From assembly GCA_001799715.1 (NCBI GenBank), contig MGTZ01000060.1, forward strand, positions 30,120 to 94,119: a DNA stretch of 64,000 nt, read 5' to 3'. Numbering within the stretch: position 1 is the first letter of the stretch; each line of letters begins with the position of its first letter. Below, one piece after another: positions 1 through 15,983 of the stretch. This DNA is from Elusimicrobia bacterium GWB2_63_16 (GTDB lineage: Bacteria > Elusimicrobiota > Elusimicrobia > Elusimicrobiales > UBA9959). The notes below the pieces were generated by a model. It was not told the DNA's origin, ran no database searches, and was given only the letters and a program-made list of their open reading frames with translations. The translations under genes were made by a program, and so were the position numbers.

Positions 1-3000
1 AGCAATAATGCCGTGCCTTCCAAGATGATCTCCTTCCTGTTCCAGGGCAGCACGGTGCCGGTTTTCGCCAACGGCGCGGGCCTGGCCTCCACCGACTACA
101 CGGCCTCCCTGTCCTCCGGCACCTACGAGCTCCAGGCCTCTTTCGCCGGCGACGCCTCGTACAACCCCAGCGTCTCCACCCGGGCAGTGACCGCGCTGCG
201 TTATCCCACGCTCATAACCGGGCCAGCCATCACCGTCACGATGAACGAGGTGCTCACCGCCACCGCCACGCTGACCGACTACCTGGCCAGCACCGTGCCG
301 GCCAAGGCGCTGACGTTCACCTTCCAGTCGCAGCCTTTCGTCGACATGACGGACGTCCTGGGCGTGGCCTATTCCACCTACGCCGCCGCCGTCGCCGCAG
401 GCAACTACCAGCTGCCGGTGGCCTTCGCGGGCGACGCCCTCTACGAGTCCACCAGCACCAGTATCCCCGTGCTGGTGAACAAGCGCGTCCCGCTGCTCAC
501 CGTCAGCACGGCCGCCTCCAGGGCGCTGGACGTCTTCACGGCCTCGGCCACCCTGGCCGATAACCTCTACCCGGTACAGAAGCTGGCCGGGCAGACCGTC
601 GCCTTCGAATTCCTGGTGGGCACCACCACCTATAGCGGCAACGGCGTGACCGACGCGCAGGGCCTGGCCGTCTATAACTTTACCGCCCCGGCCTCCACCG
701 GAGCCTACGAACTGAGGGGGAACTTCGCGGGGAATTCCACCTATTATCCCTCGCTCAAGACCAGCACCGTCACCGTCTCGGCCCGCCCCGCCCTGCTGTC
801 CCTGGCCGACGCTGAGACCGAGATCGACGAGCTGTTCCGGACCACCGCCACGCTGACCGACCAGGCCACCCTGCAGCCCGTGGCCACGCGTTTGATAACC
901 TTCACCTTCGGCTCCAGTTCAGCGGCCTACACGGCGGCCGACGGCCAGGCCTCCGTGCGTTACTCGGCCCCCGGCTCTTCCGGGACTTACCAGGTGGACG
1001 CCGCCTTCTACGGCGACGCCACTTACGGCGCCGTCACTTCCTCTTCGACCCTGACAGTCAAGCGGCGCCCGCTGGCGCTGGCGGCCCCGGATATCGCGGG
1101 CATCATCGACGAGGTCTTCAAAGCCACCGTCACGGTGACGGACACGCTCAACGCCGGCGCTGTAGTCGGCCGCAGCGTCAATTTCGTCTTCGCCAATAGC
1201 ACGTTCACCGTACCGACCGGCGCCGGCGGCGTGGCCGTCTCCACCTTCGCGGCGCCTTCCGCCACCGGCCTCTATTACGCCGCCATCAACTTCCCCGGCG
1301 ACGCGCGCTACCTGCCGGCCGCCACCACGGCCCAGCTCACCGTGGACAAACGGCCCGCGGTCATAGACGCCGAACCCGTTACGGCGCGGGCCGCTCAGGT
1401 CTTCACCGCCACGGCCTCCCTGCGCGACGTGCTGTCCCCGGCCTACAAGCCGGACGGGCGCCCGCTGGTCTTCTACTTCCAGGGCAGCAGTTTCACCGCC
1501 CTTACCGACGCCGAGGGCGTGGCCGTCTCCACGTTCATGGCGCCCGCCTCCAGCGGCGCGGTGCGCCTGGACATCTCTTTCGCCGGCGACGCCCGCTACA
1601 CCGCGGCGTCCTCCTCGGAGGCGGTCACCGTACTGCGCCGCCTCTCCCTGCTGACCCTGGAGCCCCTTACGGCCAACGCGCTGGACATCTTCACGGCCAC
1701 CGCCACGCTGACCGACAAGGCTGACGGCACCTACGCCCCTGGGCGCGACGTGATCTTCCACTTCGCCGGCACCAGCGTCACGGCCGTCACCGACGCCGGC
1801 GGCATAGCGTCGGCCGCCTTCAGCGCCCCTGCCTCCTCGGGCGCCTACCAGGTGGAGGCCACTTTCGAGGGCGACTCGGTCTACGACACCAGCTATTCCA
1901 GCGGCGCCTTAGCCGTGCTGCAGCGCCCCGTGGGCATAGCCATAGCCGACAGCTCGGCCTATCCTTTCGAGCAGTTCACGGCCACCGCCACCCTCACCGA
2001 CGGCGCCACGGCGGCGCCGGTGGACAGCCGGCTGCTGCTGTTCAGCCTGGACGGGACGCAGCTGGCCGGGATCACGGACGGATTGGGCGTGGCCACCGCG
2101 GCCTATACGCCCCCGGGCAGCTTCGGCTACTACGAGATCGGCGCCGAGTTCGCCGGCGACGCCACCTACGCGGCCTACGCCGCCACCGGCACGGTCGAAG
2201 TTAAGCAGAGACCCACCTCGGCAGCCTCGCTGGACGCCGCCGCCACGGCCATGGAAGTGTTCATCGCCAGCGCCTCCCTCTCCGACGTGCGTTTCGGCAC
2301 GCCGGTGGAGGGGAAAGAAATGGTCTTCCTGTTCGAGGGGCAGACGAGCAGCGCCGCCACCGACGCGCAGGGCCTGGCCTGGACGCAGTTCTCCGCGCCG
2401 GTCTCTTCCGGCACTTACTTCTTTACCGCCGAATTCCACGGCGACACGGTCTACGAGGTCTCTTCGGCCACCGGCGCCGTGGCCGTCAGCACCCGCTTTA
2501 CCAGGACCATAGCGCGCGACACCAACGCCAACGTGGGAGAGCCCTTCGTCCTCTCGGCCACGCTTACGGACCCGGCCAGGGAAGGCCAGCCCGGCTATTT
2601 CGTGCCTAACGTGTCGCTGCGCTTCATCTTCAAGGACAGGGACGACTTCACCATCGAGGAGGGCTCGGCCACCACCAACGAGATCGGCGTGGCCACGGTC
2701 ACGTTCAGCGGACCCGGCTCGCCCGACGTCTATTACTACACGGCCGTATTCGAGGGCGACTACACCTACACGCCCAGCAGCGCTACCGCCATGGTCAAGG
2801 TGGGCCTGCTGACGTCGCTGGTGGCCAACGACGTGGAGACCGAGGCCCTAGAGAATTTCAAGGTGAAGGCCAAGCTGACCGACTACCTCTCCACCACGCT
2901 CGACGACAAGACCGTGCGCTTCGCTTTCCTCGGCCTCAACGCGGCCGGCATGACCAACGCCGAAGGCGACTCCGGCGTGGCCGCCTCCACGTTCACGGCC

Positions 3001-6000
3001 CCGCCCTCCTCCGGCACCTATAACTATTACGCCTACTTCGACGGCGACTCCATCTATTCGGCCAGCAACGCCACCGGCACCATAACCGTCAAGCTGCGCA
3101 CGGCCTCCATAGTCACGTTCCCGACCAGCGCCCTGTCCTACAGTTCCTTTACGGCGCTGATCGCCCTCAAGGACCTCAAAACCAACGGCTCCATAGGCGG
3201 CCGGGACGTGGAGATCTACTTCAACGGCAGCACCGTCGCGGTCAATACCGACGCCGACACGGGGGTGGCCGGCGCCTCCTTCTTCGCTCCTTACTCCTCC
3301 GGCACCTACAATTACCACGCCTGGTTCGCGGGCGACGACACCTACGCCCCCTCGGTAGGCACCGGCACTCTCACGGTGGCGCTGCGCCCCACCAACATGC
3401 TGTCCTACAATGTCACGGACCTCACCTCCAACAGCACGTTCACGGCCCGGGTACAGATCAAGGACAACGCCAACCTGCCCATAGAGGGGCTCAGCGTGGA
3501 CTTCAACTTCGAGGGCCAATTCGGCATCGGCGTCACCGACTCGCTGGGCATAGCCGAAGCCGTGCTGACCGCTCCGGCCTCCAGCGGCACGTACACCTAT
3601 TCAGCGGTCTTCTACGGCGATGAGCGCTATGCAGGCAGCAACGCCGACGGCAGCGTGGCCGTCGGCCCCAGGCCCACGCTGATGGTCACCGCCGCGGTCT
3701 CGTCCAAGCTGGGTTCGCCGCTGGGGCTCTCGGCCCGCCTGGTGGACACCGCCACGCAGGCCGGCATCTCCGGCAAGCAGTTGAACTTCTATTTCAACGG
3801 GGCCACCCTCACGGCGGCCACCGACGCCTTCGGCATCTCCAGCGTGGCCTTCGTCTCGCCGGCCTCCACCGGCGCCTACTACTACGAGGCGGAGTACGCC
3901 GGCGACGGCCTGACCTACATGGGCAGCTACTCTTCCTCGCCGGTCACCGTAGCGCTCAACTTCACCCGGCTCGAGGCCGCGGACAACATCTCCGTAAAGA
4001 TCTTCGAGCCGCTGCAGGTGCAGGCCATGCTGCTGGACTCCCTGGGCGTCTGGATGCCCGGCCTGCCGGTGACCTTCGCCTTCGAGGGGACCGAGACCGA
4101 GGATTACACCGACGAGTTCGGCCGGTCCACCGCCTCGTTCCCCACGCTGCTGCTGGCCTCCACCGGCACCTACAACTATACCGCCGAGTTCGCCGGCGAC
4201 ACGCTCTACGTGGCCTCCAGCGACACCTCCAACGTGGTCAACGTAACCAGGCGCGACTCGCTGCTGACGGCCGGCAGCCTGATGACCACGCCCAGCAAGC
4301 CGTTCACGGCCGCCGCGCTGCTCTCCGACAACGTCAACGACAGCGTCTTCAACGGCGCGCCGGTCTCCGGCAGGACCATCCTGTTCGAGTTCTTCGACTC
4401 CACGTTCACGCAGGTCTCCTCCGCGCCCACCTCGGCGCTGGGCGTCTCCAGCGTGGCCTTCACCGCGCCGGCCTCCACCGGCACCTTCCTGCTGACGGCG
4501 CGCTTCGCCGACGACGACCCGATCTACGCCGGCTACTTCTCCTCGGCCGCGGTAGTGGTGATGCTCGACGACGGCACCGGGGCCATCAAGACCAAGCTGG
4601 CGGTCGCGCCCGCGCGGGCCTACCTGAGCCAGGTCTTCACGGCTTCCGCCACGCTGACCGCCACCGACGAGCCGGTGCCGGGCAAGGCAGTGATGTTCGA
4701 ATTCTTCAACGGCGTGGCCACCTACCCGGCGGTCGGCTACACCGACGGCATCGGCCTGGCCACGGCGGCCTTCACCGCGCCGGCCTCCTCGGGCACCTAT
4801 ATAATGACGGCCTACTTCGCCGGCGACGCTCAGTTCTCCGCCGCCACGGGCACGGGCACGCTGACCGCCGAGCGCTACCCGGTGTCCCTCGTGGCGCAGG
4901 ACGTCTCGGCCTACGCCAACGAGGTCTTCAGGGCCAGGGCCGTGCTGCGCGACGACCTCACGCTGGCCTACGTGCCCTCGAAGACGGTCACCTTCAGCTT
5001 CTTCAACGGGGTCTCCACCATAACCAGTACCGCCCTGACCAGTTCCACCGGTTCCGCGGAGGTGGAATTCACCGCGCCCGGCGTACCGGGCGACTATTTC
5101 TACACCGCCAGTTTCGAGGGCGACGCCGTCTATCTGGACGCCGCCGACACGGCGTCGCTGCTGATAGCCTCGCGCGGCTCGAGCACCTTCCTGGTGGGCT
5201 ACGACATCGGCTACGACGTCTCGGTAGGCACCGGCGAGGTGGTCGCCGCCTCGGCCACGCTGACCTCCAAGGGCTACCCCGTGCCCGGCAAGCCCGTCAC
5301 CATCACCTTCCAGGGCGTGGCCAGGGTCTCCACGACCAACGCGCAGGGCCTGGCCTTCTCTACCTTCACGGCCCAGGCCTCCAGCGGCACCTTCGTCTAC
5401 CAGGCGGAGTTCATCGCCGACGCCAACTATAACGCCGCCGTGGCCACCGCCGCCGTGCTGGTGGTGTTCAGGAAGCAGCCCGAGCCCCCGGCCTTCAAGG
5501 CCGAGGTCACCTCCACCACCGTCACCCTGGCCTGGACCCAGGTGACCCAGTACCAGGACGAGGTGAAGGAATACATCATAGAGCAGGCGGTCTCGCTGCG
5601 CGGCAACGCCAGCACCTCCACAGCCGTCAGCGCGAGCAGCACCGCCTTCACCTGCGACGTGAGCGAGGACGAGTCCACCTTCATCAAGATCAAGACCAAG
5701 CTCAACGACGAGCAGATCAGCGCCACCACGCTGATAGTGGAGGTGCCCAGCAAGGCCGCCGACCCGGACCGCGTGCCCAACTACTACTATATGAGCCCCG
5801 GCGAGAACCCCCAGGACTGGGCCGCGTGGGTCAGGATCCCCGGCAAGGTCATGGACAAGGTCTCGGCCAACAACGCCTTCGATATCTCGGTGGAGAAGGA
5901 CGTCAATCCCGACTTCCTGGCCGCCTACACCGTCAAGCCTACCGGCGCGCAGTCCGCGACCCTGGAAAAGGACCTGCGCACCGCCGACAGGAAAGGCGTG

Positions 6001-6489
6001 AAGCTGACCATAGCCTACCCGCAGGGCGGCACCGGCACCTCGGCCGCGGGCCAGGTGGCGCTGTACTGGTATAACGGCGTGGAATGGGTCAAGCTGGGCG
6101 GCGAGATAGACGTGCTGACCGGCGAGATCTACACCTACTCCCGCGTGCTGGGCCAGTTCGCCGTGCGGGCCGACACGCTGGCCTCCGAGTTCACGCTGAC
6201 CAAGGTGGCGCCGCGCATCTTCACCCCCGACGCGCCCGACGCCACCCCCGGCAAGACCATCAGCCGCGCCACCTTCTATTTCGAGAACCCGGCCGGCGGC
6301 GAAGTCACCATCCGCATCTTCGACATCACCGGCGCGCTCGTGCGCAGGAACCTGGAATCCGCCGGCGCCAGCATGATGTTCTGGGACGGCCGCGACCAGG
6401 CCGGCGCGCTGGTGAAGGGCGGCGCCTACATTTACCAGATCGAGGCCGGCGAAGAAGTGATCACCGGCACCGTGGTGGTGGCCAAGTAG
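1..6489 (+). CDS. Giant secreted Ig-repeat protein with FlgD-type C-terminal domain (5' partial)
   Basis: The frame is open from base 1, so the N-terminus lies outside the window; about 2,160 codons are visible. The first ~1,815 codons are about 19 tandem Ig-like repeats of roughly 95 residues. Each starts near 'FTATATLTD' and ends with a block like 'APASSGTY' followed by 'FAGD..Y'. A fibronectin-III-like domain follows (about residue 1826, counted from the GTG at 13), then a linker. The last ~100 residues (from about 2060) are a FlgD-Ig/type 9-like sorting domain with 'VTIRIFDITGALVRR', 'WDGRDQAGALVKGG' and a terminal 'GTVVVAK'. Such architecture is known from surface adhesins and filament-like stalks exported to the outer surface. 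The stand-alone sorting-domain gene and the PorV-like gene just downstream suggest it is cargo of an outer-membrane export system. Function is inferred; the repeats are clear. Confidence 0.85.
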   Translation, partial: SNNAVPSKMISFLFQGSTVPVFANGAGLASTDYTASLSSGTYELQASFAGDASYNPSVSTRAVTALRYPTLITGPAITVTMNEVLTATATLTDYLASTVPAKALTFTFQSQPFVDMTDVLGVAYSTYAAAVAAGNYQLPVAFAGDALYESTSTSIPVLVNKRVPLLTVSTAASRALDVFTASATLADNLYPVQKLAGQTVAFEFLVGTTTYSGNGVTDAQGLAVYNFTAPASTGAYELRGNFAGNSTYYPSLKTSTVTVSARPALLSLADAETEIDELFRTTATLTDQATLQPVATRLITFTFGSSSAAYTAADGQASVRYSAPGSSGTYQVDAAFYGDATYGAVTSSSTLTVKRRPLALAAPDIAGIIDEVFKATVTVTDTLNAGAVVGRSVNFVFANSTFTVPTGAGGVAVSTFAAPSATGLYYAAINFPGDARYLPAATTAQLTVDKRPAVIDAEPVTARAAQVFTATASLRDVLSPAYKPDGRPLVFYFQGSSFTALTDAEGVAVSTFMAPASSGAVRLDISFAGDARYTAASSSEAVTVLRRLSLLTLEPLTANALDIFTATATLTDKADGTYAPGRDVIFHFAGTSVTAVTDAGGIASAAFSAPASSGAYQVEATFEGDSVYDTSYSSGALAVLQRPVGIAIADSSAYPFEQFTATATLTDGATAAPVDSRLLLFSLDGTQLAGITDGLGVATAAYTPPGSFGYYEIGAEFAGDATYAAYAATGTVEVKQRPTSAASLDAAATAMEVFIASASLSDVRFGTPVEGKEMVFLFEGQTSSAATDAQGLAWTQFSAPVSSGTYFFTAEFHGDTVYEVSSATGAVAVSTRFTRTIARDTNANVGEPFVLSATLTDPAREGQPGYFVPNVSLRFIFKDRDDFTIEEGSATTNEIGVATVTFSGPGSPDVYYYTAVFEGDYTYTPSSATAMVKVGLLTSLVANDVETEALENFKVKAKLTDYLSTTLDDKTVRFAFLGLNAAGMTNAEGDSGVAASTFTAPPSSGTYNYYAYFDGDSIYSASNATGTITVKLRTASIVTFPTSALSYSSFTALIALKDLKTNGSIGGRDVEIYFNGSTVAVNTDADTGVAGASFFAPYSSGTYNYHAWFAGDDTYAPSVGTGTLTVALRPTNMLSYNVTDLTSNSTFTARVQIKDNANLPIEGLSVDFNFEGQFGIGVTDSLGIAEAVLTAPASSGTYTYSAVFYGDERYAGSNADGSVAVGPRPTLMVTAAVSSKLGSPLGLSARLVDTATQAGISGKQLNFYFNGATLTAATDAFGISSVAFVSPASTGAYYYEAEYAGDGLTYMGSYSSSPVTVALNFTRLEAADNISVKIFEPLQVQAMLLDSLGVWMPGLPVTFAFEGTETEDYTDEFGRSTASFPTLLLASTGTYNYTAEFAGDTLYVASSDTSNVVNVTRRDSLLTAGSLMTTPSKPFTAAALLSDNVNDSVFNGAPVSGRTILFEFFDSTFTQVSSAPTSALGVSSVAFTAPASTGTFLLTARFADDDPIYAGYFSSAAVVVMLDDGTGAIKTKLAVAPARAYLSQVFTASATLTATDEPVPGKAVMFEFFNGVATYPAVGYTDGIGLATAAFTAPASSGTYIMTAYFAGDAQFSAATGTGTLTAERYPVSLVAQDVSAYANEVFRARAVLRDDLTLAYVPSKTVTFSFFNGVSTITSTALTSSTGSAEVEFTAPGVPGDYFYTASFEGDAVYLDAADTASLLIASRGSSTFLVGYDIGYDVSVGTGEVVAASATLTSKGYPVPGKPVTITFQGVARVSTTNAQGLAFSTFTAQASSGTFVYQAEFIADANYNAAVATAAVLVVFRKQPEPPAFKAEVTSTTVTLAWTQVTQYQDEVKEYIIEQAVSLRGNASTSTAVSASSTAFTCDVSEDESTFIKIKTKLNDEQISATTLIVEVPSKAADPDRVPNYYYMSPGENPQDWAAWVRIPGKVMDKVSANNAFDISVEKDVNPDFLAAYTVKPTGAQSATLEKDLRTADRKGVKLTIAYPQGGTGTSAAGQVALYWYNGVEWVKLGGEIDVLTGEIYTYSRVLGQFAVRADTLASEFTLTKVAPRIFTPDAPDATPGKTISRATFYFENPAGGEVTIRIFDITGALVRRNLESAGASMMFWDGRDQAGALVKGGAYIYQIEAGEEVITGTVVVAK

Positions 6490-6508: not shown

Positions 6509-6859
6509 ATGAGAAACTTCCTCAACGCCTTACTACTCCTCGCCCTGCTGGCGTCGCCCGCGGCGGCCGCTTTCGCCCTGACCAAGGTGACGGCCCGCGT
6601 CTTCAGCCCCGGCGAGGCCAACCCGGACGTCAACCGCGCCCGCTTCCATTTCACCAACCCCGAGGCGGGGGAGGTCACCATCCGCATCTTCGACATCAAG
6701 GGCGCGCTGGTGCGCAGGAACCTGGACTCGGAGTCGGCCGGCGTGATGTACTGGAACGGCAGGGACCAGGGCGGCTCCGTGGTGAGGGGCGGCATCTATA
6801 TTTACCAGATCGAGGCCGGCGAACAGGTGCTCACCGGCACCGTGGTGGTGGCTAAATGA
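6509..6859 (+). CDS. Stand-alone FlgD-Ig/sorting-domain protein with signal peptide
   Basis: This 116-residue protein is a signal peptide (about residues 1-21, hydrophobic run ending 'SPAAAAFA') followed directly by one FlgD-Ig domain and nothing else. The domain is nearly the same as the last ~95 residues of the giant Ig protein upstream. Both contain 'EVTIRIFDI.GALVRRNL', 'WDGRDQ' or 'WNGRDQ', 'YIYQIEAGE' and end 'GTVVVAK'. It starts 20 bases after the upstream stop and its own stop overlaps the next ATG (ATGA), so the three genes are probably co-transcribed. It looks like a duplication of the sorting domain alone. It might act as a cap, a competitor for the export machine, or a structural subunit; none of this can be told from sequence. 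Confidence 0.75.
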   Translation: MRNFLNALLLLALLASPAAAAFALTKVTARVFSPGEANPDVNRARFHFTNPEAGEVTIRIFDIKGALVRRNLDSESAGVMYWNGRDQGGSVVRGGIYIYQIEAGEQVLTGTVVVAK

Positions 6860-8541
6860 AACGGTCCTATAATATGAAGACTATCTTCGCCATCTTCTCC
6901 CTGCTCTGCCTGGCGGCCCTCGCCGCGGCGCCGGCGCGCGCCGCCTTCGAGGACGTGGAGACCGGCCCCAGGGCCTCGGCCATGGCCGGCGCCTACGCCG
7001 CCCAGTCCGAAGGCATCTCCTCCGTTTTCTACAACCCCGCCGGCATCATCGGCACCACCCGCTACGAGGCCGCCCTCGCCCAGCAGAAGCTCTACCTCGG
7101 CCTGACCGACGGCAGCGCCATCTCGCGCAACGCCATAGCCTTCGGCCTGCCGCTGGCCTTCGGCGGCTCCTACTGGGGCACCGCCGCCGTGGGCCTGGAT
7201 ACGCTCAGCCTAGACAGCCTCTACAGCGAGTCCCGCCTGCGCATAGCCTGGGCCTACCCGCTTAAAGAGCGGCTGTGGGCCGGCCTGGCCATAGCCCGCA
7301 TGGGGGTGACCTACGGCAGCGACGCCTATACCGCCGTGAACCCGGTGCTCAGCAGCGCCAAGGAAATGTCCGCCATGGGCCTCGACCTCGGCGCCGTCTA
7401 CAGCGCGGAGCTGGCCGACTTCGGCCTCTCCATCCAGAACGCCAACGAGCCGGACCTGGGCATCAAGTACGCCAACAAGGTCTCCCGCAAGATCAGCCTG
7501 GGCATGGCCCTCAAGCGGCAGGCTTTCACCTGGAACACCGACCTGTCCCTGTCCGGGCAGGATATCAAGATCAAGACCGGCGCCGAGGTGCCGGTAATGA
7601 AAGAGACTTACGGCGACCGGCTGCAGGCCCGCGGCGGCTTCAGCGTGGGCTCGCGCGACTACCGCTCGCTCGCCGCCGGCTTCGGCTACCGCCGCGCCTC
7701 CTACCGCGTGGACTATTCCTTCGTCTACCCGCTCAGCGGCCTGGCCGACACCATGGGCTCCCACCAGCTCGGGCTGTTCGTCGCCTGGGGCGAGGCCCGC
7801 GGCCCGCTGGCCGACCGGGAGAACCAGTATTCCGACGAGGCCGGGGAGAAAGGCCGCGGCGGCGGCAAGGGGGACGGCGCCGGCGAGGGCGAAGGCCTGC
7901 CGCAGAAGACCGAACCGAGCAAGCAGGACCTGCAGAAGGCCGGCAAGCTGCTGCGCGAGGCCAGGCTCAGCCTGCGCTCCGGCGCCTACGCGAAGGCCGA
8001 GGCCGCTTACAAGAAGGCCGACGAGCTGCTGATGAACACCGACCCGTCCATCAAGGAAACCACGCTCAAGATGAACGCGGTGAGCGAGATCCTGCCCGAG
8101 GCTACCGCCCAGGCCGGCCGCGACGACCTGCTGCGCAAGTCCGTCAACCGCTACGCCGACAAGAACACCGACGCGGTGCTCTACATCACCTACGCCCGCC
8201 AGAAGTGGCCGAGGGACATAGCGGTCGCAAGGTTGTATAATCTCATCAGCCGGGAATTCCCGGAGACGGCCTCGGAACTGCGCATCCTGCCCGGCATCAC
8301 GATCATAGACCAGCTGCTGCAGGACGCCCTGGACTTCATCCGCAACGGCCGCTTCATCCAGGCCATTTCCACCCTGCAGCGGGTGCTGCAGCTGGAGCCC
8401 GACAATATACCGGCCCTGACCCGCATGGGCTCGGCCTACTGGGCGATGGAAAAGAAGGATATCGCGAGGAAAAACTGGCGGAGGGTTTTGGAACTTGATC
8501 CCGGTAATACGGAAGTTAACCAGTTCATGAAGATGAATTAA
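6856..8541 (+). CDS. PorV/UPF0164-like outer-membrane barrel fused to a C-terminal TPR domain
   Basis: The 561-residue product has a signal peptide, then a PorV/PorQ-like (UPF0164) section. This carries the family's start motif 'GPRASAMAGAYAAQSEG' followed by 'VFYNPAGI', then many short amphipathic strands to about residue 310. A Gly/Glu/Lys-rich linker (about 320-355) leads to TPR-like helices (about 356-561), including 'ALTRMGSAYWAMEKKDIA'. PorV proteins of the type 9 system are outer-membrane shuttles for sorting-domain cargo. The position after two sorting-domain genes fits that role by analogy. The ATG at 6856 overlaps the previous stop; a second in-frame ATG at 6874 gives an equally good signal peptide and neither has a clear ribosome site. 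The fused TPR is unusual and may serve as a periplasmic docking arm. Confidence 0.75.
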   Translation: MKRSYNMKTIFAIFSLLCLAALAAAPARAAFEDVETGPRASAMAGAYAAQSEGISSVFYNPAGIIGTTRYEAALAQQKLYLGLTDGSAISRNAIAFGLPLAFGGSYWGTAAVGLDTLSLDSLYSESRLRIAWAYPLKERLWAGLAIARMGVTYGSDAYTAVNPVLSSAKEMSAMGLDLGAVYSAELADFGLSIQNANEPDLGIKYANKVSRKISLGMALKRQAFTWNTDLSLSGQDIKIKTGAEVPVMKETYGDRLQARGGFSVGSRDYRSLAAGFGYRRASYRVDYSFVYPLSGLADTMGSHQLGLFVAWGEARGPLADRENQYSDEAGEKGRGGGKGDGAGEGEGLPQKTEPSKQDLQKAGKLLREARLSLRSGAYAKAEAAYKKADELLMNTDPSIKETTLKMNAVSEILPEATAQAGRDDLLRKSVNRYADKNTDAVLYITYARQKWPRDIAVARLYNLISREFPETASELRILPGITIIDQLLQDALDFIRNGRFIQAISTLQRVLQLEPDNIPALTRMGSAYWAMEKKDIARKNWRRVLELDPGNTEVNQFMKMN

Positions 8542-8543
8542 AG

Positions 8544-8587
8544 GCGGGCAGCGCCGGAGTCCCCCAGGGCCGGCGCCCCGCTTTTTT
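8544..8587 (+). terminator. Rho-independent terminator before the motor operon
   Basis: The arms GCGGG-CA-GCGCCGG (8544-8557) and CCGGCGC-CCCGC (8570-8581) pair around a 12-base loop and are followed by six T. It separates the sorting-domain/PorV genes from the FliF-FliG/Mot operon. Confidence 0.85.
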
Positions 8588-8611
8588 GCGTTATAGAAGG
8601 AGCAGGTAAAA

Positions 8612-10060
8612 ATGAAAAGCAAGAACCTCTTAACTTTCGCGCTGCTGGCCGCGGCCCTTCTGGCCCCGGCGGCGGCGCAAGCCCAGTCGCTGGAAGCGCT
8701 GCGCAGCAAGACGGCCCTGGAGGCGCAGATAGAAGAGCGCCTCCGGTCCATGATCTCTTCCTACCTCAACACCAAGGAAGTCGCCGTGGCCGCCAAGGTC
8801 AACGTGCTGGTCAGCCGCAAGAACGACGATCCCAAGAGCGGCGTGCGCAAGTGGGACGACAAGGACGAACTGATCCTGCCCGGCGTGCCCGCGGCTACCT
8901 CGATGACCAAGGATTCCGGCGCGGCCAAGGCCGCCGAGGCCGCCAAGCGGCAGGTGCGCCTGGGAGTGGACAGCGTGAACATCTGGATCATCGTGGGCAA
9001 GCCGGTGGCCAAGGACCAGGAGACCAAGATCAAGAAGCTGGTCGGCGACGCGCTGGGCCTGGACACCGCCGTTGGCGACACCATTTCCGTGGAGAGCACG
9101 CTGCCGGAGAAGCCTTCGCGCGCGCTGGATATCGGCGCCATCGTGGCCCTGGTCTGCCTGGCCGTGCTGGCCGCCTTCCTGTACGGCCCTTTCCGCGGCT
9201 TCCTGGCCCGCCTCAACGAGAACCTGGCCGCCCTGGCGGCGGCGAAGAAAGGCCCGGCCGAGCACAAGTCCGGCGGCGGCGGGGACATCACCCTGGCCGG
9301 GGGGGACGACATGCCCGCCGAGACCACGATGTCGGGCGCGCTGGCCATAGCCGGCGGCGGCGGCGGGGCGTCGGTGCTCTCTTTCGATTCCGGCGACAAC
9401 ATCCCGCTGGAAAAGTACGTCACCAAGGACAACGTGGACGACCTGATGCTCATCCTGCACGACGAGCCCGCCGAAGTGATAGCCAAGGTGGTGCAGCGCA
9501 TCCCGCAGAAGCTGGCCTTCACGGCCATCCCCAAATACAAGATGAAGGAAGTGCTCGAGCAGTTCCTCAAGCGCGAGTTCGACGAGCCGGAGAAGATCAA
9601 GACGCTGCTGGACCGCATCAAGGACAAGATGGCCGGCAGCTTCGGCGGCGAGCAGCGCCTGGGCAACCTGATGCAGATCATGGACAAGAAATCCCAGGAG
9701 CGCACGCTGGCCTTCCTGCGCGAGAAGGACGCGGCCTTCGCCGCGGCCGTGGAGACCCGCTACTTCAAGTTCGAGGACCTGATGCGCTACGACGAGATGG
9801 CGCTGCGCAGGATCTTCCGCAAGGCCGGCGCCGAGCCTTTCGCCCGCTGCCTGAAGAACTGCGACGCCCCCACGCTGGAGGCCTTCCACGAGATGCTGGG
9901 CCCCGCCATCAGGGACCTCGTGAACGCGCGCATGCAGAACATGCTGCTGACCGGCGACACCAACGATTCGGAGCTGACCATCCTGGCCGCCGTGCAGGCG
10001 CTGGCCGCCAAGGGGCTGATCCTGCCGCTGGCCGACGTCAAGCAGGCCGGCAAGGTCTGA
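8612..10060 (+). CDS. Chimeric flagellar-type rotor protein: FliF RBM3-like domain, membrane helix, FliG M/C domains
   Basis: The start has a good ribosome site (AGAAGGAGCAGGTAAAAATG). The 482-residue chain has a signal peptide or N-terminal helix (1-25). A periplasmic section (about 26-165) resembles the C-terminal ring-building region of FliF: 'IEERLRSMISSYL', then 'VNIWIIVGKPV', 'KKLVGDALGLD' and 'GDTISVESTLPEKP'. A membrane helix follows (about 172-194), then a Gly-rich cytoplasmic linker, a FliG-middle-like segment (about 268-340) and a FliG C-terminal-like domain (about 345-475) with the family's 'FKFEDLMRYDEMALRRIF'. The two upstream ring domains, the first periplasmic part of FliF and the FliF-binding FliG N-domain are missing, as expected if the two proteins were joined. 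The torque helix (about 426-445) reads 'AIRDLVNARM' and lacks the adjacent acidic pair of E. coli FliG. In family terms this is a rotor that couples to MotA; a filament-less use is inference. Confidence 0.8.
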   Translation: MKSKNLLTFALLAAALLAPAAAQAQSLEALRSKTALEAQIEERLRSMISSYLNTKEVAVAAKVNVLVSRKNDDPKSGVRKWDDKDELILPGVPAATSMTKDSGAAKAAEAAKRQVRLGVDSVNIWIIVGKPVAKDQETKIKKLVGDALGLDTAVGDTISVESTLPEKPSRALDIGAIVALVCLAVLAAFLYGPFRGFLARLNENLAALAAAKKGPAEHKSGGGGDITLAGGDDMPAETTMSGALAIAGGGGGASVLSFDSGDNIPLEKYVTKDNVDDLMLILHDEPAEVIAKVVQRIPQKLAFTAIPKYKMKEVLEQFLKREFDEPEKIKTLLDRIKDKMAGSFGGEQRLGNLMQIMDKKSQERTLAFLREKDAAFAAAVETRYFKFEDLMRYDEMALRRIFRKAGAEPFARCLKNCDAPTLEAFHEMLGPAIRDLVNARMQNMLLTGDTNDSELTILAAVQALAAKGLILPLADVKQAGKV

Positions 10061-10085
10061 GCCGCTATTTTAAGGAGGAGTTAAC

Positions 10086-10847
10086 GTGGACTTTTCAACC
10101 GTTATAGGATTGGCCCTGGGCGTGGGCTGCGTTTATTACGCCATGGCGGCCGGCGACATCATGGGCCTGCTGTGGGACCTGCCTTCCTTCATCCTGGTGG
10201 TCGGCGGCACCATAGCCTCCACCATGATGACCTTCCCGATGGAAGTCATAAAACACGTGCCGCGCTCGCTGCTGCTGACCTTCTTCCCGCAGAAGGTAGG
10301 CAAGCCGCAGGTTATCATCAACCGGCTCTGCGCGCTGGCCGACGTGGTCAAGGAGAAGGGCGTGGACTCGCTCGCCGAACACACCGTCAAGGACGACAAG
10401 TTCCTGAAGTCCGGGGTAAAAATGATACTCAGCGAATGGGACGAGGACGCCATCAAGGAAAGTCTCGAGAAGGACATGGAATTCACGCTGGAGCGACACC
10501 AGCAGGTGCAGAAGGCCTTCGCGGCGGCCGGCGGCTACGGACCGGTGTTCGGCCTGCTCGGTACGCTCATCGGCATCCTGGGCGTGCTGCGCTACCTCGA
10601 CAGCCCCAAGGCCATGGGCGCCGCCATGACGGTGGCCATCGTTACCACTTTCTACGGCATCTTCATGGCCAATTTCATAGCGCTGCCCACCGCCGGCAAG
10701 CTGGAGAACTACAGCAACAAGGAACTCCTGGCCAAGCAGCTGATGCTGATGGGCGTGCTCTCCTTCAAGAAAGAGGAGTCTTCCCTGAACCTGCGCCGCA
10801 AGCTGGAGAAGCACCTGGGCGCGCAGCACCGCAAAGAGGAAAAATAG
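10086..10847 (+). CDS. motA: MotA-family stator protein
   Basis: The GTG start follows a strong ribosome site (AAGGAGGAGTTAACGTG). The 253-residue product has four predicted membrane helices in MotA order: two near the N-terminus (about 3-22 and 30-50), a long cytoplasmic loop, then two more (about 150-205). The MotA signature is intact: 'YGPVFGLLGTLIGILGVL' with the conserved Pro, then 'AMTVAIVTTFYGIFMAN' and 'ALPTAGKLE' with the second conserved Pro. MotA forms the pentamer that surrounds a MotB dimer and pushes on FliG as ions flow. The FliG-like protein sits immediately upstream and two MotB-like genes immediately downstream, so stator and rotor are encoded together. The family assignment is firm; what the motor drives is unknown. 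Confidence 0.92.
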   Translation: MDFSTVIGLALGVGCVYYAMAAGDIMGLLWDLPSFILVVGGTIASTMMTFPMEVIKHVPRSLLLTFFPQKVGKPQVIINRLCALADVVKEKGVDSLAEHTVKDDKFLKSGVKMILSEWDEDAIKESLEKDMEFTLERHQQVQKAFAAAGGYGPVFGLLGTLIGILGVLRYLDSPKAMGAAMTVAIVTTFYGIFMANFIALPTAGKLENYSNKELLAKQLMLMGVLSFKKEESSLNLRRKLEKHLGAQHRKEEK

Positions 10848-10862
10848 CCGTACCCCGAACCG

Positions 10863-11627
10863 ATGGCCCTGAAGAAGAAAAGCCTTAAAACGCCCGTAGT
10901 CTGGATGACGGTCTACAGCGACCTCATAACCAACGAGGCTCTGTTCTTCATGATGCTTTTCGCCAGCGTGCTCATAGCCTACCAGAAAGGCTTCACGGAG
11001 CAGGAATTCAGGGATTACATGCGCGGCATCTCCACCTCGATCTACAAGAAGGAAGCCGCGGCCAAGACCATGACGGAGACCGGCAAAAAGCTGGCCAGGA
11101 TAGAAGGCATAGCCTCGGTGAAGCTCGGCGACAAGGACCTGCGCATCGTGCTGCCGGAGCCGGTGCTGTTCGAATCCGGCCAGGCCAAACTTAAGGAAGA
11201 GGGGAAACTGGTGCTGACCGAAGTGGGCAAGGTGCTGGCCGCCAGCCGCTACGACCTGGAGATAGAAGGCCACACGGACGACGTGCCCATAACCCAGGCG
11301 GCGCCGGCCGGCATGAAGCGCTGGCAGCTGGCCATGGCGCGCTCCACGGGGCTCGGGCCCTACTATTCCAACCGCGAGCTGTCGGCGGCGCGCTCGCTGC
11401 AGGTGCTGCAGTATTTTACGAGGGAGAGGCTGCTGGCCCCGGAGCGCGTAGCGGCGGCGGCCTACGGCGAGTACATGCCGGCTGGCCCCAACGACAGCTA
11501 CGAGAACCGGGCCAGGAACCGCCGCATAGAGATCAAGCTGGTGCTGCGCGACAGGGCGGCCCTGGTGCGGATGGCGGCCCTGCAGCAGGCCCCGGAGGCC
11601 GCGGCGGCGCCGGGGACGGTCCAATGA
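10863..11627 (+). CDS. motB: MotB-like stator protein with OmpA peptidoglycan-binding domain (ion-conducting type)
   Basis: The 254-residue product has a short basic N-terminus and one membrane helix (about 12-37). It keeps the MotB pattern 'VVWMTVYSDLITN': Asp20 sits where MotB carries the ion-binding Asp (consensus Y-A-D-x-M-T). A linker leads to an OmpA-type peptidoglycan-binding domain (about 100-245) with 'LEIEGHTDDVPI', a variable insertion and 'NRRIEIKLVL'. It should anchor the stator to the cell wall and carry the ion. It starts 15 bases after motA and overlaps the next gene by 4 bases (ATGA). Confidence 0.9.
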   Translation: MALKKKSLKTPVVWMTVYSDLITNEALFFMMLFASVLIAYQKGFTEQEFRDYMRGISTSIYKKEAAAKTMTETGKKLARIEGIASVKLGDKDLRIVLPEPVLFESGQAKLKEEGKLVLTEVGKVLAASRYDLEIEGHTDDVPITQAAPAGMKRWQLAMARSTGLGPYYSNRELSAARSLQVLQYFTRERLLAPERVAAAAYGEYMPAGPNDSYENRARNRRIEIKLVLRDRAALVRMAALQQAPEAAAAPGTVQ

Positions 11628-12265
11628 AGAAGAAGAAACTGGACTTCTCCGAGGCGATGAACGCCTACCTGATGCCCTACATCGGCGTCATGACCATCTT
11701 GTGCATCTTCTTCCTGATCCAGTACGCCGACTACTCGGAGCGCCTGAAGAAAAAGAACGCCGAGCGCACCGAGATCCTGGCACAGGAGGTCAAAGAGGAC
11801 CTCAAGGACCTGCAGGACGCCAAGGTGGAGACGGTGGAGGACGGGATCAAGGTAACGCTGCCCTCTTCCGTGGTTTTCGACCTGAGCATAGCCAGACTCA
11901 AGGACGCGGCCCTGCCCACCCTGGGCAACCTGGCCGCGAGCATCAAGAACCTCGACGAGCGCTACGTGGTGGTGGTGGACGGTCACACGGACGACGAGCC
12001 GGTCTTCTACGGCGGCGACTTCTCGTCCAACTGGGAACTTTCGCTCTACCGGGCCATCAGCGTGATAGATTTCCTCGTGAAAGAGGGGAACAACCCGGAA
12101 CTTTTCGCGGCCGCGGGGCACGGGCAGTACAGCCCGCTGTACCCCAACGATACGCCGGAGCACAAGGCGGCCAACCGCAGGGTGGAGATACTGATACGCA
12201 GGAGGACCGCCCCGTCGGCGCCTCTGGCGGAAGTGGTGAGCGCGGAGCGGCAAACCGCAAATTAA
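11624..12265 (+). CDS. Second MotB-like protein with OmpA domain, lacking the ion-binding Asp
   Basis: This 213-residue protein repeats the MotB layout: a basic N-terminus, one membrane helix (about 14-36) and an OmpA domain with 'VVVVDGHTDDEPVF' and 'NRRVEILIRRR'. The helix reads 'AYLMPYIGVMTILCIFFL' and contains no Asp, so the position used by MotB to bind the ion is not acidic. The nearest acid is Glu10, before the helix. It is translationally coupled to the first motB by ATGA. One MotA with two MotB-like partners recalls AglR with AglQ and AglS of Myxococcus gliding, although those lack the OmpA domain. A heterodimeric stator or a wall anchor without ion flow are both possible. Confidence 0.85.
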   Translation: MKKKKLDFSEAMNAYLMPYIGVMTILCIFFLIQYADYSERLKKKNAERTEILAQEVKEDLKDLQDAKVETVEDGIKVTLPSSVVFDLSIARLKDAALPTLGNLAASIKNLDERYVVVVDGHTDDEPVFYGGDFSSNWELSLYRAISVIDFLVKEGNNPELFAAAGHGQYSPLYPNDTPEHKAANRRVEILIRRRTAPSAPLAEVVSAERQTAN

Positions 12266-12296
12266 GGCAACAGGTAAGGCAGGCTAAGGAGAATCA

Positions 12297-12677
<381 letters not shown>

Positions 12678-12683
12678 CGCCGC

Positions 12684-14810
12684 ATGCGCCACGCAACGCT
12701 CAAGCCCCTGCTGACGGCCCTGCTGGCCGCCTGCTGCGCGGCCGCGGCCCAGGCCGCGCCGGAGATGATCGTACTGGCCTCCGCCACGTACGACTCCGGC
12801 GCGCTGTCCGACGTGGCCACCGCGCTGGCCGTGGACGCGGCCGGCAACATCTTCGTCACCGGCAACAGCGGCAACGACTTCCTCTCCGTCAAATACAGCA
12901 AGACCCTGGCGCTCACCGTGGGCGCGGCCAGCCTTTACGCCAACGGCGGCAGCGGCAATATCCCGGGCGGCATAGCCGTGGACGGCCTCGGGAACATCGT
13001 GGTGGCGGGTTCCGAGAACAGCGCGGCCAACTACGTCACGCTGAAATACAGCGCCAATTTCGGCGCTCTGCTCTCTTCCGCCGCCTATTCCGGCGGGGTC
13101 GAGGATAAAGCCAACGCCGTGATCACCGACGACCAGAACAATATCTACGTCACCGGCTACAGCAACAACGGCACCGACGATTTCTACACCATCAAGTACA
13201 GCCCCGCCCTGAACCAGGTCTCCAGCGCGGCCTACGACAGCGGCGACCTGGACCAGGCCAACGCCCTGACCTTCAACGGCGACTACCTGATAGTGGCGGG
13301 CCTGACCAAGACGGACGGCGGGACCAACGACAACGTGCGTCTGGTGCGCTACGACAAGAACCTCAATTACCTGCCGCCGGCGGTTTCTTTCGACAGCGGC
13401 GGCGGCGACGTGGCGTACGGCGTAGCCTCCGACGCGCAGGGCAACATCATCGTGGCCGCCCGCCGGGCGGGAGCCACGCCGGACTTCCTCACCCTTAAAT
13501 ACGACAGCACGCTGACCACGCTGATCTCATCGGCGGTCTACGACAGCGGGGGGGTGGACTGGCCCAAGGGCGTGGCGGTGGATTCCAGCGGCAACATCAT
13601 CGTAACCGGGCACACCAATTTCCCCGCGGCCGGTAATTTTTTAACCATCAAGTACGACAGTTCGCTCAACGTACTGTCCACGGCGGCCTATGACGGCGGC
13701 CAGGCCGACATCTCCAACGCCGTCATCGTGGACGCCGAAGACAATGTGATCGTGGCCGGCCAGAGCTACACGGCGACCGACAACTATTTCGTGGTCAAAT
13801 ACAACGCCTCGCCGAAGCTCACCGCCGTGGACGAGCTCTATATCGGCGAGACTTCGAACGTCAACATCATCGGCCGCGGCCTGCTGCCGGACACGGCCGT
13901 CTCTTTCTCCGACACGCTGATCTCCACCGGCGCGGCCTCGTATAATTCAGGCCAGATCACTCTGCAGGTAGCCCCGGCGCCCTCGGTCATACTGGGCTTC
14001 ACCACCATCACCGTCACCAACTCCAACGGCGAGTATTACACTTCCGCCTCGCTGGCCAGGACCCGCCTGCGCCAGTCCATCCCAGCCGCCCAGGCGGCCA
14101 CGATAAGCGCCATGATGAAGCTGGGCCAGGTCACGGTCTCCGTGCCGGCCAACTCCTTCGCGCTGCAGGAGACCATCACGCTCTCTCCGGAAACCGCCGC
14201 TGCCGGCGACATACAGCAGGCCGGCGAGGGCCTTTTCATAGCGGGCAACCCTTCCACCACCTCCCTGCAGAACCTGACGGTCACCCTGCGCTACAGCGTC
14301 GCGGACCTGGGCGACTACCCCGAGGCCGCCCTGTCGCTGGGCTACTACGACACCGCCTCCGGCTGGGTAGCGCTGCCCTCCACGGTCAACACCGCAGCCA
14401 AAACGGTGACCGCCCCGGCCAAGGCGGCCAACAATAAGTACGCCGTCATTAAAGCCGTTTCCAGCGGCGGCGGGGGAGGCATAGGCGGCCCCGGCGGCGG
14501 CAGCGGCATACCGGCCAAGGTCTACCCCAACCCCTACCGTCCCGGCAGCGGCGGCAACTTCGACGATTCAACGCTGGGCGCGGGCATAGTGTTCGCCGGC
14601 CTCGGCGCCGGCGGGTCCTTCAACCTGACCATAGTGGACCTGTCCGGCCAGCTGATACACCAGAAGTCGGGCACGGCCGACAGCGAAGGCCGCTACCTCT
14701 GGGACACCAAGAGCGACTCCGGGGCCGAGACGGCCACCGGCGTCTACATCTATTTCGTCAAAGGAGGGAGCGGGGAACCGCGGAAAGGCAAGTTCTCCAT
14801 CATCCGCTAG
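12684..14810 (+). CDS. Secreted SBBP-repeat (beta-propeller-like) protein with C-terminal sorting domain
   Basis: The 708-residue product has a signal peptide (1-24, ending 'AAAAQAA'). About eight SBBP-type repeats follow (25-380) with the pattern 'A.AVD..GNI.VTG.S', 'DF...KY...L' and 'YDSGG.D'; these are often propeller blades. An IPT/TIG-like Ig domain (about 383-455) and a beta-rich domain come next. The C-terminal domain from about residue 612 starts 'KVYPNPYRPG' and contains 'LTIVDLSGQLIHQ' and 'YLWDTKSDSG', which is type 9/FlgD-like. It begins 6 bases after the receiver gene and has no obvious ribosome site. The next gene is PorV-like, repeating the cargo-shuttle pairing seen twice elsewhere in the window. 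Surface location is inferred. Confidence 0.8.
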   Translation: MRHATLKPLLTALLAACCAAAAQAAPEMIVLASATYDSGALSDVATALAVDAAGNIFVTGNSGNDFLSVKYSKTLALTVGAASLYANGGSGNIPGGIAVDGLGNIVVAGSENSAANYVTLKYSANFGALLSSAAYSGGVEDKANAVITDDQNNIYVTGYSNNGTDDFYTIKYSPALNQVSSAAYDSGDLDQANALTFNGDYLIVAGLTKTDGGTNDNVRLVRYDKNLNYLPPAVSFDSGGGDVAYGVASDAQGNIIVAARRAGATPDFLTLKYDSTLTTLISSAVYDSGGVDWPKGVAVDSSGNIIVTGHTNFPAAGNFLTIKYDSSLNVLSTAAYDGGQADISNAVIVDAEDNVIVAGQSYTATDNYFVVKYNASPKLTAVDELYIGETSNVNIIGRGLLPDTAVSFSDTLISTGAASYNSGQITLQVAPAPSVILGFTTITVTNSNGEYYTSASLARTRLRQSIPAAQAATISAMMKLGQVTVSVPANSFALQETITLSPETAAAGDIQQAGEGLFIAGNPSTTSLQNLTVTLRYSVADLGDYPEAALSLGYYDTASGWVALPSTVNTAAKTVTAPAKAANNKYAVIKAVSSGGGGGIGGPGGGSGIPAKVYPNPYRPGSGGNFDDSTLGAGIVFAGLGAGGSFNLTIVDLSGQLIHQKSGTADSEGRYLWDTKSDSGAETATGVYIYFVKGGSGEPRKGKFSIIR

Positions 14811-14816
14811 AACGCC

Positions 14817-15983
14817 ATGAAAAGCTCACGCCTCCTCGCCCTCACCGCCCTCGCCGCCCTGTGCTGCGCCGGTGAAGCCCGCGCCGCCGGGGCCTCCTCG
14901 GCCGCCTTCCTGCGGGTGGGCTGGGGCGCCAGGCCCGCGGCCATGGGCGAGGCCTTCACGGCCGCCGCCGACGACGTGGACGCCCTCTACTGGAACCCGG
15001 CCGGGCTTAATTACGTCAAGCGCATGCAGCAGACCTTCGGCCACAACGTCTGGCTGGCCGATACCAGCCTGCAGCACGCGGCCTTCGCCCTGCGCCGCAC
15101 GCCCGACGACGTGATAGGCGCCGGCCTCGGCGGCCTGTCCACCGGCGACATAGAGCGCGGCAACAAGTACGGCTACACCGAAGGCTACTACAGCGCCGGC
15201 GACCTGGTGCTGATAGGCTCCTACGCCCGCACGCTCAAGAACAAGCTCCGGGCCGGCGCCAGCTTTAAGATCATCCGCGAGCGCATAGAGAGCGAGAGCG
15301 GCCAGGCTTTCGCGCTGGACGCCGGCGCCGTTTACGAACGCTCCCCGCGCCTCAAGTTCGGCGCCACGCTGCGCAACCTGGGCACGGGCCTCGCGCTGGG
15401 CGAAGCCGGCACCCCGGGCGGGCTGCCCATGGGCCTGCGCGCCGGCGCCGCCCTGCAGTACAATAAGGACCTGCTGCTCACCTCCGATATAAGTCTGCCT
15501 TTCGACGATTCGCTGGGGCTGCATTTCGGCGCGGAGTACATCTACCCGGCGCCGGTGAAAGGCGCGCGCCTGGCCCTGCGCGGCGGCTTCAAGACCGCGG
15601 CGATGGGCTACCTCGGCGCCATGGCGGCCATCAGCCTGGGCTTCGGCGTGGAGACCGGCGCGCTGGGAGTGGATTACGCGCTGAGCCCCTACGGCGACCT
15701 GGGCATGACGCACCGCCTCAGTCTGAAGATAAAGTTCGATTCGCTCACCGCGAAGCAGGACCAGATCACCCTGGAAAAGAACGGGAAGAAAGTGACCCGC
15801 GCCGCCGCCGACGTCTACGCCGAGACCATGCAGTGGTTCAGGGCCAAGACCGAGGCCGAGAAGCTGGGCAGGGCCGAGCAGGAGACGCTGCTGAAGCGCA
15901 TCATAGAGAAGTTCTCTCCGCTGGGCGTGGACGTCAGCGAAGCTAAAAAGCAACTGGGAGGCCCCGATGCGCCTCCCCGCTAA
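14817..15983 (+). CDS. PorV/PorQ-like (UPF0164) outer-membrane protein
   Basis: The 388-residue product has a signal peptide ending near Ala24. The PorV-family entry motif follows: 'GWGARPAAMGEAFTAAADD' then 'ALYWNPAGL'. Repeated amphipathic strands to about residue 305 fit a 14-stranded barrel of the FadL/PorV kind, and it ends in a soluble, charged helical tail (about 305-388). It follows the SBBP sorting-domain gene by 6 bases and overlaps the next ORF by 17. In type 9 systems PorV collects cargo at the translocon; here the role is by homology and neighbourhood only. Confidence 0.8.
   Translation: MKSSRLLALTALAALCCAGEARAAGASSAAFLRVGWGARPAAMGEAFTAAADDVDALYWNPAGLNYVKRMQQTFGHNVWLADTSLQHAAFALRRTPDDVIGAGLGGLSTGDIERGNKYGYTEGYYSAGDLVLIGSYARTLKNKLRAGASFKIIRERIESESGQAFALDAGAVYERSPRLKFGATLRNLGTGLALGEAGTPGGLPMGLRAGAALQYNKDLLLTSDISLPFDDSLGLHFGAEYIYPAPVKGARLALRGGFKTAAMGYLGAMAAISLGFGVETGALGVDYALSPYGDLGMTHRLSLKIKFDSLTAKQDQITLEKNGKKVTRAAADVYAETMQWFRAKTEAEKLGRAEQETLLKRIIEKFSPLGVDVSEAKKQLGGPDAPPR

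Follow-up and report, generated by a model that had tools for sequence, protein, structure and literature searches.

A putative motor without a flagellum in Elusimicrobiota with paired MotB proteins, one of which lacks the ion-binding aspartate

The motor operon reported here has its closest described counterparts in the flagellum and in gliding motility. Flagellar MotAB/PomAB stators share with it a MotA-type A subunit and B subunits made of one helix and an OmpA-like domain, and AglR-AglQ-AglS of Myxococcus gliding offers a parallel with one MotA-like and two MotB-like parts in a role outside the flagellum. In the accessible part of a 2022 review, both AglQ and AglS are described as carrying the aspartate, and whether they form hetero- or homodimers is given as unknown (PMC9389320). 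Stators have been split into flagellar and generic clades, with AglRS grouping with the ExbBD/TolQR kind (available part of PMC12505986). Heterologous pairs of B-like helices in a TolQ-like ring feature in the proposed TPH-vWA motors (available sections of PMC12204202), and according to the portion at hand of a 2025 survey, a rotor protein without a filament occurs in 11% of non-motile species (PMC12199754). The accessible text of PMC12505986 makes no mention of heterodimers or of terms beginning with "aspart-", and nothing on a MotB pair was found in the accessible parts of PMC7203096 or PMC8986121. Literature searches in one collection, for Elusimicrobia with FliG, MotA, MotB or gliding and for heterodimeric or one-aspartate stators, likewise returned no description of such a motor.

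The window (the whole stretch of 64,000 nucleotides that was analysed) belongs to a draft genome of 2.87 Mb, with Elusimicrobia MAGs as its near relatives among named genomes, and contains, all on the plus strand at 8612-12677, a rotor gene followed by MotA, MotB1, MotB2 and a response regulator. MotA (10086-10847, 253 aa, GTG start, PF01618 at 3.7e-24) is of the flagellar MotA/PomA type and not of the TolQ/ExbB kind: the NCBIfam models for PomA and MotA matched at 2e-52 and 1.3e-49, both below their equivalog cut-offs, the TolQ model at 0.001 only, and a profile of the family to which this MotA belongs matched the MotA structure 9lu9 at 6.9e-69 and also PomA 8brd. MotB1 (10863-11627, 254 aa) and MotB2 (11624-12265, 213 aa) both possess an OmpA-like domain, peptidoglycan-binding in MotB1 (Pfam OmpA, 1.2e-13 and 6.8e-13, respectively); a Pfam search gave a weak match to MotB_plug in MotB1 (0.006) and none in MotB2. 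In the structure model of MotB2 (pLDDT 76) the first helix is long and the periplasmic domain resembles that of MotB, and Foldseek matched the model to Helicobacter pylori MotB 3s0h at 2.6e-14. In line with the translational coupling named in the preliminary description, the two genes overlap, the stop of MotB1 and the start of MotB2 sharing four bases (ATGA), and an overlap of this type was present in six of seven orthologues measured, the window included. Such an overlap fits equal amounts of MotB1 and MotB2 and does not force them to mix. The response regulator receiver protein encoded next (12297-12677, PF00072 at 9.6e-31) might possibly control the motor; reading by eye, a similar gene lies 3' of MotB2 in nine of ten orthologous loci (window counted), and in locus L050 it is placed after the rotor gene instead.

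Compared with flagellar MotAB/PomAB, the window has two different B subunits, one of them without the aspartate. The likeness to the gliding motor drawn in the preliminary description holds for the number of parts and breaks down elsewhere, as both Agl B subunits carry an aspartate (accessible part of PMC9389320), whereas MotB2 has none, and the window MotA is of the MotA/PomA type (PomA 2e-52 vs TolQ 0.001) while the Agl A subunit is of the TolQ/ExbB kind. The paired TPH-vWA proteins differ in having an aspartate per monomer and a vWA instead of an OmpA-like domain, with no FliG rotor mentioned in the available sections (PMC12204202).

The rotor gene (8612-10060, plus strand, 482 aa) encodes a signal peptide-like start, a periplasmic domain resembling FliF RBM3, one membrane helix and FliG middle and C-terminal domains. 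Pfam FliG_C matched its C-terminal half at 3.9e-10, TIGR00207 (fliG) matched at 5.6e-12, below the equivalog cut-off, and the FliG structure 3usy was matched by sequence at 1.4e-7. An AlphaFold model (pLDDT 71.6, weak in the linker) recovered FliG 3usy in Foldseek at 4.3e-8, with the FliF RBM3 structure 8ftf ranking lower at 2.5e-4; of the FliF ring-building domains only RBM3 is represented, by fold, YscJ_FliF_C reaching 0.001, below its cut-off. The FliG match and the RBM3 fold match therefore identify the rotor gene as a short natural FliF-FliG fusion. It shares these domains with the flagellar FliF-FliG rotor but, at 482 aa, lacks most of FliF and comes with neither FliM/FliN nor an export apparatus among the genes found. 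FlhA and FliM/FliN each had no match in 61 genomes (its own and 60 relatives, many of them drafts), in searches whose controls were positive in 4 of 14 named genomes each. Across the phylum FlhA was found in 5 of 340 genomes, one of which (G187) also bears a pair cluster on a separate contig, and outside the phylum in none of the four genomes reached. Since FlhA and FliM/N gave no matches, the operon most likely encodes a non-flagellar motor. In total, five FliG_C proteins and six MotA/ExbB proteins are encoded in the genome; the four further FliG_C proteins, the rotor gene upstream of the stator genes and a second helix acid in MotB1 had been left out of the preliminary description.

MotB1 has Asp20 (GAC, 10920-10922) in the motif Y-S-D-L-I-T, in agreement with the Y-x-D-x-x-T context noted before, and the same alignment column in MotB2 is Gly21 (GGC, 11684-11686, plus strand as well) in P-Y-I-G-V-M-T. 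The previous reading of MotB2 as an OmpA-domain protein without a helix acid is likewise borne out: the core of its helix has no acid at any other position either, the Asp of YADY sitting 15 residues further on at the periplasmic end. Where the window has the Gly21 codon, the sister loci L049 and L050 read GAC (Asp). Glycine is fixed in all eight orthologues (GGC in six, GGG in two), with a helix nearly invariant around it, and median dN/dS in this clade is 0.165 for MotB2, 0.184 for MotB1 and 0.145 for MotA (28 sequence pairs each). The Asp-less MotB2 is under normal purifying selection like its partners, and because the glycine is fixed in 8/8 with two codons and purifying dN/dS, it is neither a sequencing artefact nor a product of chance. 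MotB2 appears to be a functional protein that has lost nothing but its acid.

To place this pair among its relatives, FliG-MotA-MotB-MotB clusters were gathered from 340 genomes belonging to the phylum, with named genomes scanned in addition, and the residue at the Asp column was read from a profile alignment of the helices; pairs and single MotBs came from ranked match lists rather than a random sample. Both helices were visible in 91 of the 93 pair loci of the first set (Asp/Asp in 64, the MotB2 Asp lost in 24, the MotB1 Asp lost in 3). The named-genome scan gave 74 pair loci, of which 59 were dropped as already-counted clusters and 15 non-identical ones added, for a total of 108 with 106 visible. 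Two loci with one helix off the contig were left out: L165, and L092, in which MotB2 has Ser and MotB1 runs off. Both partners keep the aspartate in 72 of the 106 pairs; MotB2 has lost it in 31 (14 Asn, 8 Gly, 5 Thr, 3 Ala, 1 Ser) and MotB1 in three (two Cys, one Gly), the second partner there keeping its own. A strict tie of the loss to the second protein is contradicted by these numbers: relatives with an Asp in MotB2, which the preliminary description had named as its refutation, do occur (72/106 pairs keep both), and three pairs have lost that of MotB1. Only the strict form of the link is refuted. What stands is the pair with one acid, a MotA with two different co-translated MotBs, one of them Asp-less and under purifying selection; the design with two MotBs thus extends beyond the pairs that have lost an aspartate. 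No pair has lost it in both partners (0/106), which we do not count as statistical proof, the margins giving P = 0.35 by chance. The Asp-less helices preserve the rest of the motif: out of 35, 30 retain Tyr at -2, 33 Met at +2, 29 Thr at +3 and all 35 Phe at +9. Among MotA columns around TM4, a comparison for residues marking one-Asp clusters yielded only lineage-typical letters.

Pairs are common in Elusimicrobiota and were also met in four MAGs that their own records label Nitrospirota (L262 with Ala and L271, on a chromosome record, with Thr in MotB2) or Clostridia (L246 with Thr, L249 with Asn at the MotB2 Asp column). An apparent MotB1-MotB2 gene fusion in L131 and L244 (a 590 aa frame) was rejected, as it spans a scaffold gap filled with N; each half carries the Asp. 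A two-MotB cluster with both aspartates also occurs in L267, on the same contig as L171, in a record named Candidatus Obscuribacterium magneticum, a name that we take to point to magnetotaxis.

Single MotBs of the same phylum served as a control. The aspartate is kept in 63 of 64 of them (24/25 in the first set, 39/39 in the second), where unpaired means single within the fetched stretch and L126 (partner off the contig) and L278 (an already-counted pair) are left out. Loss in 34/106 pairs vs 1/64 singles corresponds to a Fisher P of 2.7e-7, with the relatedness of rows ignored.

We lean towards a stator in which MotB1 and MotB2 form a heterodimer within one MotA ring and a single carboxylate is needed, a reading drawn from the sequences. 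It would explain the loss of the acid in one partner, the fact that either partner can lose it, its retention in single MotBs and the conservation of the helix. The operon would then encode a small rotary motor rather than a flagellar component, with a ring of the FliF-RBM3/FliG fusion as rotor, its FliG portion being the presumed driven part, and, as stator, a MotA pentamer enclosing a single copy each of MotB1 and MotB2 (a supposed 5:1:1 ratio). Both MotBs would be anchored to peptidoglycan through their OmpA-like domains. As the membrane carboxylate would reside on MotB1 alone, ions would probably take a single path and the ring would turn without two carboxylates alternating; the simplest expectation would be that each turn takes half as many ions as in a two-Asp stator, in longer steps.

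On the other hand, MotB1 homodimers with MotA might do the driving, and MotB2 might sit in separate, non-conducting MotA complexes or dimers as an anchor, spacer or brake. MotB homodimers are the known state, the periplasmic domains of both MotBs are complete and the four-base overlap does not force mixing, but the roles would have to swap in the three clusters with an Asp-less first partner, 72/106 pairs keep both aspartates and the Asp-less helix retains the rest of its motif, so that we regard this arrangement as unlikely. The same retained motif, the gene position next to MotA-MotB1 and the 72 two-Asp pairs speak against an accessory envelope anchor outside the MotA ring, with its helix off the ion path. 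In favour of this improbable role, MotB2 has no acid and OmpA-like anchors of other functions exist (NCBIfam list). Least credible is a MotB2 in decay with a neutral loss of the aspartate: replacement by many residues in many lineages might suggest it, yet a dN/dS of 0.165, a helix nearly invariant in 8/8 and a complete periplasmic domain make it very hard to believe.

A further alternative concerns the single ion path itself. MotB1 has a second helix acid, Glu25 (10935-10937), five residues past Asp20 on another face of the helix and present in seven of the eight orthologues of the clade; it might act as a second acid in place of the one lost by MotB2, leaving two carboxylates. No Asp-bearing partner of any other pair has an acid at this place, and an extra acid within the scanned stretch was found elsewhere only in L114, near the end of that stretch. 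The substitution would thus explain this clade at most, as a comparable MotB1 acid is absent from all 23 other pairs whose MotB2 lacks the Asp, and even within the clade L053 has Leu at this position and Gly in MotB2. We consider it rather improbable, if slightly less so than the accessory anchor, and keep the heterodimer with one carboxylate as the preferred reading.

A tree was built from MotA and FliG, without MotB, for 104 clusters (a quick method, with long branches included). It requires at least 11 switches between the two-Asp and one-Asp states, nine of which well-supported branches make unavoidable, and the residue state changes 17 times, parsimony changes that leave loss and regain undistinguished and carry no direction. 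The window's Gly clade (eight loci) forms one side of a branch (support 99). In L049 and L050 both MotBs carry Asp; the rotors of these two loci share 73-84% identity with the Gly-clade rotors, as much as the latter share among themselves, whereas their MotAs are 44-50% identical to those of the clade vs about 80% within it. Moreover, grouping of the Gly clade as a single unit is rejected by FliG (p-AU 0.014, with the outgroup on a long branch), and in L050 the stator genes lie apart from the rotor gene, after a PorV-like gene. These sequence comparisons suggest that the stator cassette was exchanged as a whole on one rotor lineage, and L049/L050 against the Gly clade comes closest to a swap test performed by nature. 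Whether the whole picture holds, with FliG-ring rotary motors on obligate heterodimer stators in flagellum-less Elusimicrobiota and some other bacteria, a second carboxylate lost about ten times from either partner, and cassettes swapped on the same rotor, we judge to be an even call. If it does, alternation between two carboxylates would not be needed for a 5:2-type motor to turn.

The natural variants bear on whether both B-subunit acids must act in a 5:2 motor, as the same motor design occurs in a two-acid form, in forms with a single acid on either partner and, in one case, apparently with the acid on MotA. With cloned natural stators, the one-path question becomes testable; further, the motor suggests a possible function for rotor genes in filament-less genomes. 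The case on MotA is locus L183 (G217:C17, 2533-3965), whose MotB is the sole Asp-less unpaired one. It has Asn, and helix 4 of its MotA carries an Asp (SSDF) at a place that is presumably at or beside the conserved Thr facing the MotB acid. All 17 other members of its family have Ala at that place and Asp in MotB. Thus, in this one genome, the A subunit seems to have taken over the ion-binding acid from the B subunit.

The neighbourhood of the operon offers hints about its role. A PorV/FadL-like outer-membrane barrel with TPR repeats is encoded directly upstream (6856-8541, plus strand; NF033709 PorV_fam 2.5e-9, below cut-off; TPR_2 1.5e-10) and a PorV/PorQ-family outer-membrane protein downstream (14817-15983, plus strand; PorV_fam 7.7e-47, over cut-off). 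All five rotor clusters of the genome (on C20, C28, C36, C45 and C60; L042-L045 and the window at 6856-15983) have a PorV/FadL-like barrel gene nearby, the whole genome holding 30 matches in 29 such genes; a simple Poisson estimate with 3.5 kb flanks puts this at about 4e-6, although the clusters may be mutual copies. Next to the downstream PorV-family gene lies a beta-propeller-repeat protein (12684-14810), whose C-terminus weakly resembles a type IX sorting domain (T9SS Por_Secre_tail; score 22.4 bits, cut-off 23). SprA of the T9SS had no match in this genome, in a search in which no control matched either. The nearby barrels and the type IX-like tail hint at a link to the outer membrane, and gliding, force across the envelope or secretion driven by the FliG motor are candidate functions, offered as a lead. 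Further upstream, the window encodes a very long repeat protein (13-6489, more than 2100 aa) whose repeats look Ig-like by eye. Elsewhere in the genome, a further rotor cluster, L042 (4857-11386), combines a 647-aa FliG protein with a TPR-like end, a MotA and a single Asp-bearing MotB, together with a 74-aa protein that is FlbD-like by eye, with no NCBIfam match.
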